Assembly: GCF_011440375.1 (NCBI RefSeq)
Contig: NZ_JAAOIR010000001.1
Span: forward strand, 682,001 to 746,000
DNA length: 64,000 nucleotides
Origin: Halorubellus sp. JP-L1
GTDB lineage: Archaea; Halobacteriota; Halobacteria; Halobacteriales; Natrialbaceae
Reading direction: 5' to 3'
The notes under the pieces are model-generated. The model was not told the origin of the DNA. It ran no database searches and saw nothing but the letters and a program-made list of their open reading frames with translations. This document shows, in pieces, positions 44,286-53,163 of this stretch (position 1 is its first letter; every line of letters starts with the position of its first letter). Made by a program: the position numbers and the translations under genes.

Positions 44286-44975
44286 CTAGAATGGCTCCCA
44301 GTCGGTCGGGCCGCCCGGCAGACCGAGGACGCGATACTCTCGGTCGGTCGTGCCGGTGCGGGTCTCGACGAGGCCGTCGAACAGCTGTCGGATCGTGTTG
44401 ACGGTCTGGTCGTCGTGGGCGTCCGCGTCGAGCGTCCCGAACCCGAGTCCGTCGGCGGCGCTGATGCGGCCGGTGAGGATGTGGAGGAACCTGAAGACGG
44501 TCTTGACGTCCGCGTACATCAGGAGCTGACTGATGGAGTCCAGGGCGACGCGCGTCTGATAATCTTGGTTCTGGAAGCGCTCGAGGAGCTTCGATGACGC
44601 CATCCCGATCCCGGTGAAGTCGCCGGGCGATGAGACGTACCGCGTGAGCGGGTTCTCGTCCTGTCCCATCCCGCGCTCCTGGGAGACGCAGTCGACGACG
44701 CCGAGCGTCGGGTCCGCGTCGTCTGCCACCCGGCTCCCGACGTCCTCGCGGAGCCGGCTGGCGCTGTGCTGAGTGGTGACGACGAGGCCGGCGTCTCCCT
44801 GTCGGTGGCCGTCCGCGAGGACGTCACAGAGCAGGTCATACTTGCCCGTCATCGGCGGCCCCATCACGAGGAGGTTCGTCCCGGGACGGGCCTCCGCGAC
44901 CGGGAGCGAGTCCGCTACGGCGTACACGTCCCACCACCGAGTTCGCCGTCCACCACGCCCCGTTGCATTGCTCAC
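44286..44975 (-). CDS. RecA/KaiC-like ATPase (haloarchaeal DUF7504-type)
   Basis: The 229-residue protein has Walker A MGPPMTGKYD near residue 40 and a Walker B-like RVALDSISQLL near 145, with VVTTQHSASRL as an expected strand-helix. This is a single RecA-like domain of the KaiC type, as in the abundant haloarchaeal DUF7504 proteins. The last Gly of GKT is followed by Tyr, so the P-loop is GKY, an unusual change for catalysis. GTG 44975 has TTTATACAG 20-25 nt upstream. The role is unknown. Confidence 0.75.
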   Translation of the reverse strand: MSNATGRGGRRTRWWDVYAVADSLPVAEARPGTNLLVMGPPMTGKYDLLCDVLADGHRQGDAGLVVTTQHSASRLREDVGSRVADDADPTLGVVDCVSQERGMGQDENPLTRYVSSPGDFTGIGMASSKLLERFQNQDYQTRVALDSISQLLMYADVKTVFRFLHILTGRISAADGLGFGTLDADAHDDQTVNTIRQLFDGLVETRTGTTDREYRVLGLPGGPTDWEPF

Positions 44976-45119: not shown

Positions 45120-46493
45120 ATGACACTGTTCGGGACGGCTGGCATCCGTGGCCCGGTGGCCACGTCGGTCACGCCGGAACTGGCGTTACGGGTCGGGCAG
45201 GCCGCGGGTGCGGACGGGTCGTCGTTCGTCGTCGGTCGGGACGGCCGCGAGACGGGGGCGGCGCTCGCCGCGGCCGTCGAGTCCGGGCTCGAGAGTGCGG
45301 GTGCCGACGTCGAGCGCGTCGGGGAGGTGCCGACGCCGGCGCTCGCGTTCGCGTCGCGAGGCCGCCGTGGCGTGATGGTGACGGCGAGTCACAATCCGCC
45401 AGCGGACAACGGCATCAAGTTGTTCGTGGACGGCGAGGAGTACGACGGCGAGGGCGAGGCGCGCGTGACCGACCGCGTCGAGTCCGGGCCGGCGCTCGCG
45501 GACTGGGACGCGTTCGGCGACGGCCGAGACGGGTCCGTGCTGGGGCCGTACCGTGACGCTGTCGCGGGGTTCGTTCGGGAGTCCGTCGCCGACGGTGCCG
45601 AGGAGCCGCTTGCGGGCGTGACGGTCGCGGTTGACTGCGGGAACGGGATGGCGAGCGTCGCGACGCCGCAGGTCCTCGGGGCGCTCGGTGCGGACGTCCG
45701 GGCGACGAACGCGAACGTCGACGGACACTTCCCGGCGCGGCCGTCGAAGCCGACGCCGGAGACGCTCGCGGAGTTCTCGCGGTTCGTGGCGGCGTCGGAG
45801 GTCGACCTGGCGCTGGCCCACGACGGGGACGCGGACCGGATCGTCGTGTTGACGCCAGGGGGCGACGTCGTCCACGAGGACACGGTGCTGGCGGTGCTCG
45901 CCGAGCACTACGTGTCGGAGAGCGTCGCCCCGGACCCGGTGGTGGTGACGACGCCGAACGCGTCGGGTCGCATCGACGAGCGCGTCGCGGCGGCGGGCGG
46001 GCGCACCGAGCGCGTTCGACTCGGTGCGCTCCACGAGGGCATCGCCCGGGAGCGTGCGGCCGGCGACGACGGCACGGCGGTGGCGTTCGCGGCGGAACCG
46101 TGGAAGCACGTCCACACGGCCTTCGGCGGGTGGATCGATGGCGTCGCGAGCGCGGGCGTGCTGTCGGCGCTCGTCGCTCGCGAGGGCGGTCTCGCGGCGT
46201 TGCGCGCACCGGTGACGGAGCGCCCGTACCGGAAGGTGAGCGTGTCGTGTCCGGACGACGCGAAGGCACCGGCGATGGCGACCCTCGAGGAGCGGCTCCC
46301 GGAGGCGTTCCCGGAGGGTGTCGTGGACACGGACTACGGCGTCCGCGTCGACCGCCCGGACGGATCGTGGGTGCTCGTCCGCCCGAGCGGGACGGAGCCG
46401 TACGTCCGCCTCTACGCCGAGGCCGACGACGTGGACGCGCTCGTCGAGCGTGCCCGAGACGTCGTCGAGGCAGCCGTCGAACACGCGACGTAG
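45120..46493 (+). CDS. alpha-D-phosphohexomutase family; candidate phosphopentomutase
   Basis: The 457-residue protein has the four-domain mutase layout: catalytic VTASHNPP with Ser90, metal loop DGDADR (Asp235), a sugar loop at about 320-330, and the phosphate loop RPSGTEPYVR at the C-terminus. Automatic annotation would be GlmM (phosphoglucosamine mutase). The sugar loop reads AAEPWKHVHTAFGGW instead of the usual GE(E/Q/M)SGH. Its place beside a nucleoside importer, cytidine deaminase and uridine phosphorylase suggests interconversion of ribose-1-phosphate and ribose-5-phosphate. GlmM remains possible. ATG 45120 has CTAAGT about 25 nt upstream. Confidence 0.85.
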   Translation: MTLFGTAGIRGPVATSVTPELALRVGQAAGADGSSFVVGRDGRETGAALAAAVESGLESAGADVERVGEVPTPALAFASRGRRGVMVTASHNPPADNGIKLFVDGEEYDGEGEARVTDRVESGPALADWDAFGDGRDGSVLGPYRDAVAGFVRESVADGAEEPLAGVTVAVDCGNGMASVATPQVLGALGADVRATNANVDGHFPARPSKPTPETLAEFSRFVAASEVDLALAHDGDADRIVVLTPGGDVVHEDTVLAVLAEHYVSESVAPDPVVVTTPNASGRIDERVAAAGGRTERVRLGALHEGIARERAAGDDGTAVAFAAEPWKHVHTAFGGWIDGVASAGVLSALVAREGGLAALRAPVTERPYRKVSVSCPDDAKAPAMATLEERLPEAFPEGVVDTDYGVRVDRPDGSWVLVRPSGTEPYVRLYAEADDVDALVERARDVVEAAVEHAT

Positions 46494-46570
46494 TCGAGGC
46501 AGCGGTCGAACACGCAACGTAGTCGAGGCAGCGGTCGAACACGCGACGTAGTCGAGGCAGCAGTCCAACG
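46464..46570. repeat. 29-bp tandem repeat, about 3.7 copies, from a gene 3' end
   Basis: GTCGAGGCAGCCGTCGAACACGCGACGTA starts at 46464 inside the last codons of the mutase (VEAAVEHAT-stop) and recurs at 46493, 46522 and 46551. Each copy repeats the TAG stop. Copies 2-4 differ by one or a few bases from the first. Confidence 0.93.
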
Positions 46571-46684: not shown

Positions 46685-46710
46685 TCGGCATCATGCATGA
46701 ATTGGAGGTA

Positions 46711-47787
46711 ATGCCTTCGAACAGGCGGCGTTTCTTGGCGGGCGCGGGGAGCATCGGTGCAGCAACAATGGCGGGGTGTCTGTCGACGCTCGGCGGCGGT
46801 GGCGGGAGCGGGACGAACGTGGCGGTCGTGTACGCCCTCGGTGGCCTCGGCGACAAGGCGTTCAACGACATGGCGAAGCAGGGCGTCGACCAGGCACAGG
46901 AGGAGTACGAGATGAACTACCAGGGCGCCGAGCCCTCGGGGAACAGCGACTTCCCGACGCTCCAGCGGCGGTTCGCGGAGTCCTCGAGTCCCGACTACGA
47001 CCTCGTGTCCTGCATCGGGTTCGCGCAAGCGGAAGCGTTGACGGAGAACGCCGACCAGTACGGCGACCAGCAGTTCATGATCGTCGACGCGGTCGTCGAG
47101 CAGGACAACGTCGCGAGCTACGTGTTCAAGGAGCACCTCGGGTCGTTCCAGGTCGGGCATCTCGCGGGCTTGCTCACGCAGCGTGACTTCTCGACGGGTG
47201 GCGGCGACGCGACGGAGGCGTCGACGAACACGGACGCGGCGACGGTCGGCTTCGTCGGCGGGATGGAGAACTCCCTCATCAAGAAGTTCGAGGCGGGCTT
47301 CATCGCCGGCGCGAAGCACGCTGGCGACGTGGACGTTCGCTCGGCGTACGCCGGCTCGTGGAGCGACCCCGCGCAGGGCAAGGAGATCGCGCTCTCGATG
47401 TACGAGGACGGTGCGGACATCGTCTACCACGCCGCCGGTGGGACCGGGACCGGCGTGTTCGGTGCGGCCCAGGAGCAGGGTCGGTACGCGATCGGCGTCG
47501 ACTCCGACCAGTCCAAGAGCGCTGAGGAGTACCAGGACGTCATCCTCGCGAGCATGGTCAAGCACGTCGACACGGCCGTGTACACGAGCGTCGAGAACGT
47601 CGTGAACGACGAGCACGCGGGCGGCGAAGTGAGCGCGCTCGGTCTCGAAGCGGGTGGCGTCGAGGCGGTGCTCGGGCAGACGCTCGAGTCGGAGATCCCC
47701 TCCGACGTGAAGAGCGCGCTCGAGGACTCGAAGTCCGGCATCGTGAACGGCGACATCTCGGTGCCGACGAACCCGGACGACGCCTGA
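46711..47787 (+). CDS. BMP-family ABC substrate-binding lipoprotein (nucleosides)
   Basis: The 358-residue protein has a Tat signal RRRFLAGAG and a lipobox MAGC, so it is probably exported folded and lipid-anchored. The mature part has the BMP/PnrA fold: VAVVYALGGLGDKAFNDMAKQG, GFAQAEALTENAD and VGFVGGMENSLIKKFEAGF. Bacterial relatives bind purine or pyrimidine nucleosides; the neighbours here fit that. ATG 46711 is chosen over ATG 46693 because it directly precedes the Tat motif and fits the TATA at 46679. It is the first gene of an importer operon. Confidence 0.9.
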   Translation: MPSNRRRFLAGAGSIGAATMAGCLSTLGGGGGSGTNVAVVYALGGLGDKAFNDMAKQGVDQAQEEYEMNYQGAEPSGNSDFPTLQRRFAESSSPDYDLVSCIGFAQAEALTENADQYGDQQFMIVDAVVEQDNVASYVFKEHLGSFQVGHLAGLLTQRDFSTGGGDATEASTNTDAATVGFVGGMENSLIKKFEAGFIAGAKHAGDVDVRSAYAGSWSDPAQGKEIALSMYEDGADIVYHAAGGTGTGVFGAAQEQGRYAIGVDSDQSKSAEEYQDVILASMVKHVDTAVYTSVENVVNDEHAGGEVSALGLEAGGVEAVLGQTLESEIPSDVKSALEDSKSGIVNGDISVPTNPDDA

Positions 47788-47883: not shown

Positions 47884-49446
47884 GTGAGCGACGGCGCTCT
47901 CGCCGTGCACCTCGACGGCATCACGAAGCGCTTCCCAGGGGTGGTGGCGAACGACGACGTCGACCTCCGGGTCGAGGAAGGGTCGGTGCACGCCCTGCTC
48001 GGGGAGAACGGCGCGGGGAAGACGACGCTCATGAACGTCCTCTACGGCCTCTACCAGCCGACGGAGGGCGTCGTGCGGTTGGACGGCGAGGCGATGGCCT
48101 TCGACTCGCCGCGGGACGCCATCGACGCGGGCGTCGGCATGATCCACCAGCACTTCATGCTCGTTGACCCGATGACGGTGACGGAGAACGTCGTCCTCGG
48201 GAACGAACCCCGGAAGTGGGGTGGCCTCGCGGTCGACCGCGACGCCGCCAGGCGAGCGGTCGTCGACCTCGCGGAGACGTACGGGTTCGACGTGAACCCG
48301 GACGCATCGGTCGAGGACGTAAGCGTCGGCGAACAGCAGCGCGTGGAGATCCTGAAGGCGCTGTACCGTGGCGCAGACGTGCTCATCCTCGACGAGCCGA
48401 CGGCGGTCCTGACGCCACAGGAGGTCGAGGAGCTGTTCGCGGTGTTCGAGGAGCTGACCGCACAAGGGAAGACGATAATCTTCATCTCGCACAAGCTCGA
48501 CGAGGCGATGAACGCGGCCGACGAGATAACCGTCCTCCGGGACGGCGTGAACGTCGGGACGGTCGACGCGGACGCGACCAGTCGCGAGGAGCTCGCGGAG
48601 CTCATGGTCGGTCGCGAGGTCCTCCTCTCGACGGACAAGGATCCCGTCGAGCGCGGCGACCCCGCGCTGTCGATCTCGGATCTGCGCGTGGAGGACGACC
48701 GCAGCATTCCGGCGGTCCACGACGTGACGTTCGACGTCCACGAGGGCGAGGTGTTCGGTATCGCTGGCGTGGACGGGAACGGGCAGAGCGAGCTCGTCGA
48801 GACCGTCACCGGCCTACGGGACGTCGTCTCTGGGACGGTGCGGTTCGACGGCGAGGACGTCACGGACGCGTCCCGGCGGGAACGCATCGCGAGAGGGATG
48901 GCGTTCGTCCCCGAGGACCGCCAGGAGCGCGGGCTCGTGATGGACTACGACCTCGTGGAGAACGGCCTGCTCGGGAAGCAACACGACCCGGAGTTCGCGC
49001 CGAGCGGTCGCATCGACTGGGAGGGCACGTACGGGCACGTCGCGGACGTCATCGAGGAGTACGACGTCCGCCCACCGGACCCGAGTGCGAGCGCGAAGAG
49101 CCTCTCGGGCGGGAACCAGCAGAAGTTCATCGTCGGCCGCGAGTTCAGTCAGGACCCCGACGTCGTCGTCGCGTCCCACCCAACGCGCGGCGTCGACATC
49201 GGGAGCGTCGAGTTCATCCACGAACGGATCCTCGACCTGCGAGCGCGCGGGAAAGCCGTCCTCCTGGTCTCCTCGAAGCTCGACGAAGTCCAGTCGCTCT
49301 CGGACCGCCTCGCGGTCATGCACGACGGCGAGTTCGTGGACGTCGTCGACCCGGCGTCGACGACCGAGGAGGAACTCGGGCTCCTGATGGGTGGCGAGCG
49401 CGTCGAGAGCGTCGACCCGCCCCAGCCCGGGGGTGACGTCGCGTGA
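47884..49446 (+). CDS. nucleoside ABC importer ATP-binding protein (double domain)
   Basis: The 520-residue protein contains two ABC ATPase modules in one chain, like RbsA/MglA/NupO. The first has GENGAGKTTL and SVGEQQRVEILKALY, ILDEPTAVLTPQ; the second has VDGNGQSEL and LSGGNQQKFIVGRE, with a degenerate second P-loop in which Lys is replaced (GVDGNGQSE), as is usual for these. GTG 47884 follows the binding-protein gene by 96 bp, and its stop overlaps the permease start. Confidence 0.93.
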   Translation: MSDGALAVHLDGITKRFPGVVANDDVDLRVEEGSVHALLGENGAGKTTLMNVLYGLYQPTEGVVRLDGEAMAFDSPRDAIDAGVGMIHQHFMLVDPMTVTENVVLGNEPRKWGGLAVDRDAARRAVVDLAETYGFDVNPDASVEDVSVGEQQRVEILKALYRGADVLILDEPTAVLTPQEVEELFAVFEELTAQGKTIIFISHKLDEAMNAADEITVLRDGVNVGTVDADATSREELAELMVGREVLLSTDKDPVERGDPALSISDLRVEDDRSIPAVHDVTFDVHEGEVFGIAGVDGNGQSELVETVTGLRDVVSGTVRFDGEDVTDASRRERIARGMAFVPEDRQERGLVMDYDLVENGLLGKQHDPEFAPSGRIDWEGTYGHVADVIEEYDVRPPDPSASAKSLSGGNQQKFIVGREFSQDPDVVVASHPTRGVDIGSVEFIHERILDLRARGKAVLLVSSKLDEVQSLSDRLAVMHDGEFVDVVDPASTTEEELGLLMGGERVESVDPPQPGGDVA

Positions 49447-50723
49447 CCGACGCAAACGACGACGAGACGACGCCGGACGAGACGGACGTCGACGGCGAGA
49501 CGACGCAGGACGAGACGGACGTTGGTTCGGGCGAGATCCCGTCGTGGTCGGAGTCCGCGGCGTCGAAGATCGTGACGGCGAGCGCGAAGGAACGCATCTA
49601 CATCAGCGTCGCGGCGTTCGTCGCGTCCGTTCTGGTCGGGAGCGTCCTCGTCTACCTCTCCGGGTTGGTCGTCGACTGCGCCGGCGGCAGGTTCCTCGGA
49701 TCCTGCTACAATCCGTTCCTCGTGTACTACTATCTGTTCGTCGACCCGTTCGTCGGCGGGTTCAACGTCGCGCTCGTGATGAAGGAGACCGTCCTCCTGA
49801 TCTTCACGGGCCTGTCGGTCGCGGTCGCGTTCCGCGCCGGCCTGTTCAACATCGGCTCGCAGGGACAGCTCGTCCTCGGCGGGCTCGCGTCCGCGCTCGC
49901 GGTCATCTTCGCCGCCCCGTTCGCGCCGACCGGGCCGGTCGGGACGCTCGTACTCGTCCCGCTCGCGCTGGTCGTCGGCGCCGTCTTCGGCGGCCTCTAC
50001 GCCGCCATCCCCGGTGCGCTGAAGGCGTACGCGGAGGCGAACGAAGTCATCACGACCATCATGCTGAACTTCGTCGCGACGAACCTCGCGTTCTTCCTGA
50101 TCTCGACGTACTACCAGGACCCCGAGAGCGGGAGCGTACAGACCGTCGCGATTCCGGAAGCCGCTCGCCTGACACCCGTCCTGCCGTTCTTCGAGGGCGC
50201 GCAGTTCTCCGTCGTCGCACTCGTGCTTGGACTCGCGCTCGTCGGCGGGACGTACTACGTCCTCGCGAACACCGCGTTCGGGTACGACCTCAGGACGAGC
50301 GGCGTGCAGGCCACGGCCGCGGACTACGCCGGCGTCGACGCCAAGCGCCTCGTGGTCTCCAGCATGACGCTCTCGGGCGCACTCGCGGGGCTCGGCGGTG
50401 CAGTGTACGTCCTCATGGTGATGTCGCGGTACCGGACCGGCATCCCAGCGCTCGGCTTCGACGGCATCACGGTCTCGATCCTCGCGGGCAACAACCCACT
50501 GGGCGTCCTCCCCGCCGCACTCCTGTTCGGCGTGATGAAGGCCGGGAGTCTCTCCATCGACTTCAGTCTCGGCGTCCCGAAACAGCTCGTCGGCGTGCTC
50601 CGCGGACTCGTCATCCTCTTCGTCGCGATGCCCGAGTTCTTCAGGATGCTCGCCCGCTACACGTCGTTCGGACCCGACGCGGATCGTCCGGTCGCGACCG
50701 ACGGAGGTGAGGACGATGCGTAA
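49443..50723 (+). CDS. nucleoside ABC importer permease 1
   Basis: The 426-residue protein has an acidic 50-residue start, then about nine to ten transmembrane helices with AFRAGLFNIGSQGQLVLGGL and EANEVITTIMLNFVATNL, the BmpC/NupP-type coupling motif. It should form a heterodimer with the next gene product. GTG 49443 overlaps the ATPase stop by 4 bp. Confidence 0.9.
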   Translation: MTDANDDETTPDETDVDGETTQDETDVGSGEIPSWSESAASKIVTASAKERIYISVAAFVASVLVGSVLVYLSGLVVDCAGGRFLGSCYNPFLVYYYLFVDPFVGGFNVALVMKETVLLIFTGLSVAVAFRAGLFNIGSQGQLVLGGLASALAVIFAAPFAPTGPVGTLVLVPLALVVGAVFGGLYAAIPGALKAYAEANEVITTIMLNFVATNLAFFLISTYYQDPESGSVQTVAIPEAARLTPVLPFFEGAQFSVVALVLGLALVGGTYYVLANTAFGYDLRTSGVQATAADYAGVDAKRLVVSSMTLSGALAGLGGAVYVLMVMSRYRTGIPALGFDGITVSILAGNNPLGVLPAALLFGVMKAGSLSIDFSLGVPKQLVGVLRGLVILFVAMPEFFRMLARYTSFGPDADRPVATDGGEDDA

Positions 50724-51777
50724 CCGGACCGCGTACGTCGCCGGTGGCGCTATCGGCGCGCTCGTCGTGCTCGCCGGCCTCGTGTTCACGTTCCTCGTCC
50801 CCGTCCCGTGGGTGGTCGCGCTCGCCGCACAGTTCGACACCAGCCTGTTCTCGGCCGCACTCAGACTCTCGGTCCCGATCGCGTTCGCCGCACTCGGCGG
50901 GATCTTCGCCGAGAAGTCCGGCGTCATCAACATCGGCCTCGAGGGGCTCCTGATCGCGTCCGCGTTCACGTCGATCGCGGTCGCGTGGGGGCTCGCGGGG
51001 TCCGTCGGACCGACGACCGCCGCCTGGGCGGGGTTCATCGCCGCGATCCTCGCGAGCACCTTGCTGGCCGGACTGTTCGCGGTCGTCACCATCCGGTACG
51101 AGGCCGACCAGATCATCGCGGGGCTCGCGGTCTGGCTGGTCGCACTCGGTCTCGCGCCGTTCGCGAGCCAGATCGTCTGGAACTCCGTGAACAGTCCCGC
51201 GGTGCCGACCCTGAACAACTGGGTCGTGCCCGGTCTCGTCGAGGTTCCCGTGCTCGGCCCGGCGGTGTTCGACTCGAACCCGACGGTGTACCTGATGCTG
51301 CTCGCCGTTCCCGCGTCGTGGTTCGTCCTGAATCGAACGGCGTTCGGTCGCTGGGTCCGCGCGAGCGGCGAGAACCCGAAGGCGCTCGACACGGCGGGCG
51401 TGAACGTCAGTCGCATCCGGTACGCGAGCGTCCTGCTGTCGGGCGTGTTCTCGGGCGTCGGCGGCGCCGGACTCGCACTCGGTCAGGTCGGCCAGTTCAT
51501 CGGGAGCGGCCAGACGATGGTCTCCGGCCGCGGCTGGATCGGCATCACCGCGTACCTCATGGGGAACTACAACCCCATCGGCGCGTTCCTGTCGTCGTTC
51601 CTGTTCGCGGGCCTGAACGCGCTCCAGTTCCGCGTCCAGCAGATCTCGGAACTGAACATCTCCCCGTCGCTCGTCCAGATGGTGCCGTTCGTCGCCGTGA
51701 TCGTCGTGCTCGCGCTCGTCGGGAAGACCAGACTCCCCGACGCCGCCGGCGACCACTACGAGTCCGGCGACGACTGA
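50716..51777 (+). CDS. nucleoside ABC importer permease 2
   Basis: The 353-residue protein has about eight to nine transmembrane helices with AEKSGVINIGLEGLLIASAF and YEADQIIAGLAVWLVALGL, the second BMP-importer permease (NupQ-like). ATG 50716 lies 6 nt after GGAGGTGA, one of the few clear Shine-Dalgarno sites in the window, and overlaps the end of permease 1 by 8 bp. The GTG 50707 start is less likely. Confidence 0.9.
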   Translation: MRNRTAYVAGGAIGALVVLAGLVFTFLVPVPWVVALAAQFDTSLFSAALRLSVPIAFAALGGIFAEKSGVINIGLEGLLIASAFTSIAVAWGLAGSVGPTTAAWAGFIAAILASTLLAGLFAVVTIRYEADQIIAGLAVWLVALGLAPFASQIVWNSVNSPAVPTLNNWVVPGLVEVPVLGPAVFDSNPTVYLMLLAVPASWFVLNRTAFGRWVRASGENPKALDTAGVNVSRIRYASVLLSGVFSGVGGAGLALGQVGQFIGSGQTMVSGRGWIGITAYLMGNYNPIGAFLSSFLFAGLNALQFRVQQISELNISPSLVQMVPFVAVIVVLALVGKTRLPDAAGDHYESGDD

Positions 51778-51860
51778 CCGCCGTCACGGTAGTCCTCGGC
51801 CACACCGATCTCGCGGTCGAACCGGGTGGTTACTTGCTGCTGGCGGAGGTTCTCCGACGC

Positions 51861-52259
51861 ATGGACGACGACGCACTCCTCGACGCCGCCAGGGACGTAC
51901 AGACGGAAGCCTACGTCCCGTACTCGGAGTACCAGGTCGGAGCCGCCATCGAGACCGCCGACGGCGAGGTGTACGTCGGGTGTAATCTCGAGAACGCGAA
52001 CTACTCGAACAGCCTGCACGCCGAGGAGGTCGCGATCGCGGAAGCACTCAAGGACGGCCATCGGTCGTTCGCGAAGCTCGCGGTGTCCTCGGGCGAACGC
52101 GACGCCGTCACGCCGTGCGGGATGTGCCGGCAGACGCTCGCGGAGTTCTGCGACGAGGAGTTCCGCGTGCTCTGCGACGCCGGTGCGGACGGCGTCCGCG
52201 AGCACGCGCTCGGCGACTTGCTCCCGGAGACGATCACGCGCGAGACCCTCGGGAAGTAG
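51861..52259 (+). CDS. cdd: cytidine deaminase
   Basis: Cdd converts cytidine and deoxycytidine to uridine and deoxyuridine. The 132-residue protein has the zinc site HAEE (catalytic Glu) and PCGMC. GCNLENANYSNSLH fits the substrate loop. Coming right after the importer and before uridine phosphorylase, it feeds cytidine into ribose release. A TATA-like GTTAC lies about 30 nt upstream of ATG 51861, so it may also have its own promoter. Confidence 0.95.
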   Translation: MDDDALLDAARDVQTEAYVPYSEYQVGAAIETADGEVYVGCNLENANYSNSLHAEEVAIAEALKDGHRSFAKLAVSSGERDAVTPCGMCRQTLAEFCDEEFRVLCDAGADGVREHALGDLLPETITRETLGK

Positions 52260-52341
52260 GACCGCGACGCGACAGTTGGCACCGCCAGGGTGCGACGCCG
52301 TCGCAGTAGCCTTTTGAACGCGCCACGGCTACGTGCGTGGT

Positions 52342-53163
52342 ATGACCGACGACAGCGAAGACCCGAACGCGGACGTCCAGTACCACGTCGAGGTCGGCCC
52401 CGACGACGTGAGCGACGCGGTGCTCCTCCCGGGGAATCCCGAGCGCGTCGACAAGATCGTCGACCTCTGGGACGACCACGAGGAACGGGCCTATCACCGC
52501 GAGTACCGAACCGCGACCGGTCGGTACGAGGGCGCGGACATCTCGGTGACGTCGACGGGCATCGGATCCCCGAGCGCCGCGATCGCGGTCGAGGAACTCG
52601 CGCGCGTCGGCGTGGAGACGTACGTCCGCGTCGGGTCCTGCGGTGCGATCCAGCCGGAGATGGAGGTCGGCGACCTCGTCATCACCACCGGCGCGGTCCG
52701 GCAGGAGGGCACGAGCGACGAGTACGTCCGCGAGGACTACCCGGCGGTCGCGGACCACGAGGTCGTGTCGGCGCTCGTGGCCGCCGCCGAACGCCTCGGC
52801 TACGACTACCACACCGGGTTGACGATGAGCGCGGACTCGTTCTACGCCGGCCAGGGCCGCCCGGGCTTCGAGGGGTTCGAGGCCGCCGGCTCGACCGAAC
52901 TCGTCGAGGCGCTCCAGGACGCGAACGTGAAGAACATCGAGATGGAGGCCGCCGCCATCCTGACGCTCGCGAACGTCTACGACCTGCGCGCCGGCGCCAT
53001 CTGCTCGGTGTACGCGAACCGCGTCACGGGCGAGTTCCGGACCGAAGGCGAGTCCAGGGCGGCGGAGACGGCGAGTCTCGCGGTGAAGCTCCTCCGGAAG
53101 ATGGACGCCGCGAAGGCCGAGGCGGGCGTCGACCACTGGCATCCCGGCCTGGACCTGGACTGA
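52342..53163 (+). CDS. udp: uridine phosphorylase
   Basis: Udp splits uridine with phosphate into uracil and ribose-1-phosphate. The 273-residue protein has VLLPGNPERVDKI, RVGSCGAIQP and the active-site region IEMEAAAILTLANV, as in the PNP/UdRPase family. Uridine versus purine preference is inferred from the family and the deaminase next to it. CCTTTTGAAC at about 52311 is the likely promoter. The ribose-1-phosphate product is the substrate expected for the upstream mutase, if it is a phosphopentomutase. Confidence 0.92.
   Translation: MTDDSEDPNADVQYHVEVGPDDVSDAVLLPGNPERVDKIVDLWDDHEERAYHREYRTATGRYEGADISVTSTGIGSPSAAIAVEELARVGVETYVRVGSCGAIQPEMEVGDLVITTGAVRQEGTSDEYVREDYPAVADHEVVSALVAAAERLGYDYHTGLTMSADSFYAGQGRPGFEGFEAAGSTELVEALQDANVKNIEMEAAAILTLANVYDLRAGAICSVYANRVTGEFRTEGESRAAETASLAVKLLRKMDAAKAEAGVDHWHPGLDLD

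Follow-up and report, generated by a model that had tools for sequence, protein, structure and literature searches.

In the 64,000-nucleotide stretch of Halorubellus sp. JP-L1 DNA that was analysed (hereafter the window), one gene very probably encodes (probability about 0.85) a metal-dependent, TK1777-type phosphopentomutase. This agrees with a preliminary description of the same DNA, which had proposed a candidate phosphopentomutase, and the proposal is now backed by the match of the predicted protein (P0001) to TK1777, by a loop shared with that enzyme and by a gene context conserved across the class. The mutase would most likely link ribose-1-phosphate (R1P) and dR1P with ribose-5-phosphate (R5P) and dR5P, and it probably serves pyrimidine nucleoside salvage; the activity, substrate preference, flux direction and main substrate given for P0001 below are predictions.

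The start of the mutase gene (Table 1) was chosen by the MxLFGTAGIRG N-terminus of its orthologs, and another in-frame ATG is located 39 bases upstream. By sequence, Pfam and AlphaFold model, P0001 has the alpha-D-phosphohexomutase fold with the TxSHNP and DxDxDR motifs. All three catalytic motifs listed in the preliminary description are present (T88-P93, D235-R240 and R421-P427), and the unusual sugar loop that it placed at about residue 326, EPWKHVHTAFGGW, begins exactly at that residue.

Table 1. Coordinates of the mutase gene, its motifs and the adjoining nucleoside genes in the window.
Feature	Position	Strand	Basis or remark
Phosphopentomutase candidate (COG1109 / alpha-D-phosphohexomutase superfamily, TK1777 type; P0001)	45120..46493	+	457 aa
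TASHNP catalytic serine loop, residues 88-93, phosphoserine S90	45381..45398	+	sequence; invariant across aligned orthologs (A1)
DGDADR metal-binding loop, residues 235-240	45822..45839	+	sequence, alignment
E253-D254, counterpart of TK1777 Glu249-Asp250	45876..45881	+	alignment; not diagnostic by itself
Sugar loop AAEPWKHVHTAFGGWID, residues 324-340, phosphopentomutase-type motif III	46089..46139	+	alignment with TK1777
RPSGTEP phosphate-binding loop, residues 421-427	46380..46400	+	sequence, alignment
BMP/PnrA-type substrate-binding lipoprotein, putative nucleoside importer	46693..47787	+	Pfam PF02608; PDB relatives include PnrA/TmpC lipoproteins
Importer ABC ATPase, two ABC_tran domains	47884..49446	+	domain match
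Importer permease 1 (BPD_transp_2)	49443..50723	+	domain match
Importer permease 2 (BPD_transp_2)	50707..51777	+	domain match
Cytidine deaminase Cdd	51762..52259	+	TIGR01354, 140 bits, above cut-off of 113.65
Uridine phosphorylase-like Udp (Urdpase2 type)	52333..53163	+	TIGR01718, 258.5 bits, slightly below cut-off of 280.3

The best PDB sequence match of P0001 was 9IX8, the Thermococcus kodakarensis phosphopentomutase TK1777 (296.7 bits), followed by the hexomutase TK1108, a PGM/PMM (177.6 bits); the best GlmM scored 140. In this match, the loop reads FAAEPWKHVHTAFGGWID in P0001 and FAAEPWKLVHPKFGPWID in TK1777. A fold search with the AlphaFold model of P0001 (pLDDT 95.5) likewise had 9IX8 at the top (E 2.6e-48, 42% identity, TM 0.91-0.94), with TK1108 (9DU5) as runner-up at 32% identity. 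The Thermococcus family member with phosphopentomutase activity invoked in the preliminary description is TK1777, a proven enzyme and the closest characterised relative of P0001.

A change in motif III from GEEN to AAEP separates TK1777 from the hexomutases (PMC11641776, PMC11940775), and P0001 reads AAEP(WK) where hexomutases carry GE(E/x)(N/S). In the Thermococcus phosphopentomutase (PPMTk), AAE lies within a strand and the proline in a turn, whereas GEEN forms a loop in PGMTk (PMC11940775). The same difference separates our models: in P0001 a strand extends from residue 319 to 326, thus running through residue 326 at motif III, whereas in the paralog L003 the strand (307-311) stops before Glu312 of GGE. 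The contacts of Glu249-Asp250 of TK1777 with ribose-5-phosphate come from docking (PMC11641776); the pair is present in P0001 as E253-D254 but is a weak test, since the aspartate is universal and the glutamate occurs in some hexomutases, and it was rejected as a diagnostic of phosphopentomutases.

Of the 106 distinct proteins with the pattern F[A/G][A/G]EPWK, 105 are haloarchaeal and one comes from Thermococcus; about 115 other archaeal and bacterial members of the superfamily that were examined, including the three paralogs of the same genome, lack the pattern and instead have GE or AGE at this position, with (x)SG, (x)NG or the like behind it. According to the preliminary description, an EPWKH loop in GlmM-type enzymes would speak against its reading, and none was found among these roughly 115 members. 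The loop is non-canonical with respect to hexomutases, as had been claimed, but it is conserved across the class and not a peculiarity of one genome. Judged by sequence, the loop motif, which had been considered exclusive to a single Thermococcus enzyme, is the mark of a large family.

Outside the loop, the haloarchaeal sequences agree with those from Thermococcus at eight positions in a way that is rare among other members, and neither haloarchaeal hexomutase clade shares any such position with TK1777. The family phylogeny suggested in the preliminary description united the haloarchaeal mutases and TK1777 in one clade when all columns were used (SH-aLRT 99). After removal of the loop and EDTV columns, the grouping was still the best found, with moderate support (76/88; 74% of bootstrap trees), and because of this drop the common descent of the haloarchaeal and Thermococcus mutases, when judged apart from the loop columns, is considered likely rather than independently proven.

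Superfamily members are present in all genomes of the class (292/292), with 54-100% identity to P0001 among the best matches listed. A gene for a TK1777-type mutase occurs in all haloarchaeal families sampled, also in haloarchaea that lack R15P isomerase. Low E-values in one genus had suggested that the gene is missing from some haloarchaea; this was rejected, as EPWK is present in all 17 low-scoring genomes checked, whose weak scores reflect divergence or matches split by low-complexity inserts. Judging from the subset of genomes that were read, all or nearly all members of the class probably have the mutase. A search of plasmids returned only haloarchaeal paralogs annotated as glmM (38-41% identity), and the open-access literature searched yielded no haloarchaeal phosphopentomutase.

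Several lineages deviate in length or gene arrangement. Mutase orthologs of about 490-520 aa are found in genus g27 and some other lineages (L084, L085, L250-L256), and in those of L084 and L085, low-complexity, partly acidic inserts at sites close to residues 31 and 226 of P0001 split the database matches. In Halolamina pelagica (L106), the mutase frame seems to be broken by a frameshift or a sequencing error, leaving an EPWK-containing ORF without the N-terminal FGTAGIRG. In six genomes of genus g27 (G006, G008, G009, G011, G013, G015), a hexomutase paralog and the gene for R15P isomerase are about 12.4 kb apart.

The nucleoside importer, Cdd and Udp that had been described beside the mutase were all found, each on the same strand, and from the ATPase gene through the two permease genes to that for Cdd, the end of each gene overlaps the start of the next. 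The importer scores below the cut-off of the NCBI 'putative B6' models, and its substrates are presumably nucleosides. Among 70 haloarchaeal loci (one per sampled genome), the mutase is co-oriented with the importer and/or Cdd/Udp in 64; Cdd or Udp is on the mutase strand in 51, and 22 show the order PPM-Cdd-Udp without the importer. When counted per genus, linkage was found in 47 of 53, and linkage with Cdd or Udp in 39 of 53. Not one of 33 hexomutase paralogs is closer than 20 kb to the cluster. The neighbourhood of TK1777 on one Thermococcus contig contains no nucleoside genes, and the gene context of TK1777 was discarded as support.

The gap of about 200 bp that sets the mutase gene apart from the binding-protein gene holds a 29-bp repeat and an AT-rich, promoter-like stretch that is partly conserved in a congener; the mutase may therefore have a promoter of its own. 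The tandem repeat (46458-46569; 3.9 copies with 92% matches) runs across the stop codon of the mutase gene into the gap, and the part of the same-genus locus L044 that was read does not show it. Divergent to the mutase lies a gene for a DUF7504 protein (44286-44975, minus strand), for which tblastn matches of varying strength were obtained beside the mutase in L044, L045, L046, L051 and L062.

The premise of the preliminary description that R1P needs a mutase for entry into central metabolism fails in this genome, because the genes for R15P isomerase and a neighbouring PfkB kinase (L043:8563-11389, G000 C1; both on one strand and separated by a membrane-protein-like ORF) provide another exit; the mutase was accordingly rejected as the sole exit of R1P. 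No Rubisco was found in the genome searched, and a non-carboxylating pentose bisphosphate pathway is likely in this organism. A haloarchaeal R1P route via R1P kinase and R15P isomerase has been shown (PMC9700705). The isomerase was detected in 94 of 145 genomes.

The main task of the phosphopentomutase might instead be the conversion of dR1P from DNA-derived deoxynucleosides, leading to DeoC, or the formation of R1P from R5P for R1P kinase, rather than the transfer of uridine ribose to R5P. This would fit the measured activity of TK1777 on dR1P (210 umol/min/mg; PMC11641776), the presence of DeoC, R15P isomerase and the adjacent kinase in the genome, and the oxidative pentose phosphate pathway that supplies R5P in most halophiles (PMC9700705). 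However, the mutase is linked to Cdd/Udp and not to DeoC, which is about 0.69 Mb away on C1, and about a third of the mutase-bearing genomes are without R15P isomerase. We consider such a task a serious possibility, albeit on balance not the probable one, and it alters the role of the mutase and not its activity.

Automatic annotation of archaeal relatives would suggest that P0001 is a phosphoglucosamine mutase (GlmM) with incidental nucleoside neighbours, the top NCBIfam match being Arch_GlmM (TIGR03990), and broad-specificity enzymes do exist in the superfamily. The score of 351.3 bits, however, is below the cut-off of 439, and the model assigns 494.6 bits to the proven phosphopentomutase TK1777 and thus fails to separate the two functions. 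The paralogs L002 (527.8 bits, AGEGNGG) and L003 (463.6 bits, GGEMSGA) exceed the cut-off with canonical loops and would be better GlmM candidates, whereas P0001 contains AAEPWK instead of the hexosamine-type loop GE(x)SG or GE(x)NG and is conserved in synteny with nucleoside genes. On the grounds of cut-off, loop, paralogs and context, we reject GlmM identity as highly improbable. Since TIGR03990 over-reaches, relatives may carry wrong names. Also highly improbable is a bifunctional mutase that accepts hexose as well as pentose phosphates and for which the pentose role would be one of several: TK1108 combines high hexose with low pentose activity (PMC11641776) and weak glucose-1-phosphate activity of TK1777 has been cited (eLife; PMC6609329), but TK1777 was reported without significant activity on G1P, M1P, F1P and GlcN1P (PMC11641776), and the haloarchaeal loop is as constrained as that of TK1777.

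If P0001 is a phosphopentomutase, nucleosides would enter the cell via the BMP-type importer, Cdd would convert cytidine to uridine, Udp would release uracil from uridine (or deoxyuridine), leaving R1P (or dR1P), and the mutase would turn R1P into R5P for PRPP synthesis and dR1P into dR5P for DeoC. Phosphate donation by a phosphoserine, followed by reorientation of a bisphosphate intermediate, is the established mechanism of the superfamily. In P0001, phospho-Ser90 of TASHNP would donate its phosphate to the sugar phosphate, and the bisphosphate would reorient with the result of R1P <-> R5P or dR1P <-> dR5P; DGDADR would hold the metal and RPSGTEP the phosphate, and the hexose-binding loop GE(x)(S/N)G would be replaced by the AAEPWK loop, which is shorter by one residue. 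Where R1P kinase and R15P isomerase are encoded as well, the mutase would also tie the pool of R5P to the pentose bisphosphate pathway.

The genome encodes three PNP_UDP_1 proteins, one of which (C1:1159184) resembles the phosphorylase that two other genomes encode next to R1P kinase/R15P isomerase. From context and similarity, not from the sequences used in PMC9700705, this protein is assigned to Urdpase1, which prefers guanosine (PMC9700705), and the Udp of the window to the other type, Urdpase2, which was left without a substrate in that work (PMC9700705). The same study of haloarchaeal nucleoside breakdown, published in 2022, offers no route for 19 of 63 species and does not mention phosphopentomutase (PMC9700705). 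The mutase appears to be a step left out of published schemes of haloarchaeal nucleoside metabolism. We tentatively propose, at odds just short of even, that the mutase, Cdd and Urdpase2 form a core haloarchaeal route for pyrimidine nucleosides, parallel to the guanosine/R1P-kinase route, which would represent the missing nucleoside pathway where R15P isomerase is absent and a two-way valve between R5P and pentose bisphosphates where both exist. With the mutase linked to the Urdpase2 paralog and Cdd, both gaps of the 2022 study, the species without a route and the substrate of Urdpase2, become simple tests.

Bacterial DeoB is a phosphopentomutase that catalyses the reaction proposed here for P0001. 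It belongs to an unrelated protein family (COG1015, TIGR01696) and was not found in the genome searched, and P0001 matches only models of the phosphohexomutase family; an identity of P0001 with DeoB was rejected. The non-carboxylating pentose bisphosphate pathway of halophiles also handles nucleoside-derived R1P, and its genes are present here, but it employs R1P kinase and R15P isomerase and no mutase (PMC9700705). Archaeal and bacterial GlmM (TIGR03990, TIGR01455) share the superfamily with P0001, which is below both cut-offs and differs from them in its loop and neighbours. TK1108 and the haloarchaeal L002-type paralogs have the same fold and catalytic motifs but differ in the loop (GEEN or GEGNGG) and, in the case of TK1108, in its hexose activity. 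The closest counterpart is TK1777, with which P0001 shares the COG1109 superfamily, TASHNP, DGDADR, RPSGTEP and EDTV, the loop AAEPWKxVHxxFGxWID, the predicted fold and, in the model, the strand and turn at motif III; the two proteins are 42-44% identical, and P0001, whose activity is predicted, differs in being haloarchaeal and encoded next to an importer, Cdd and Udp.
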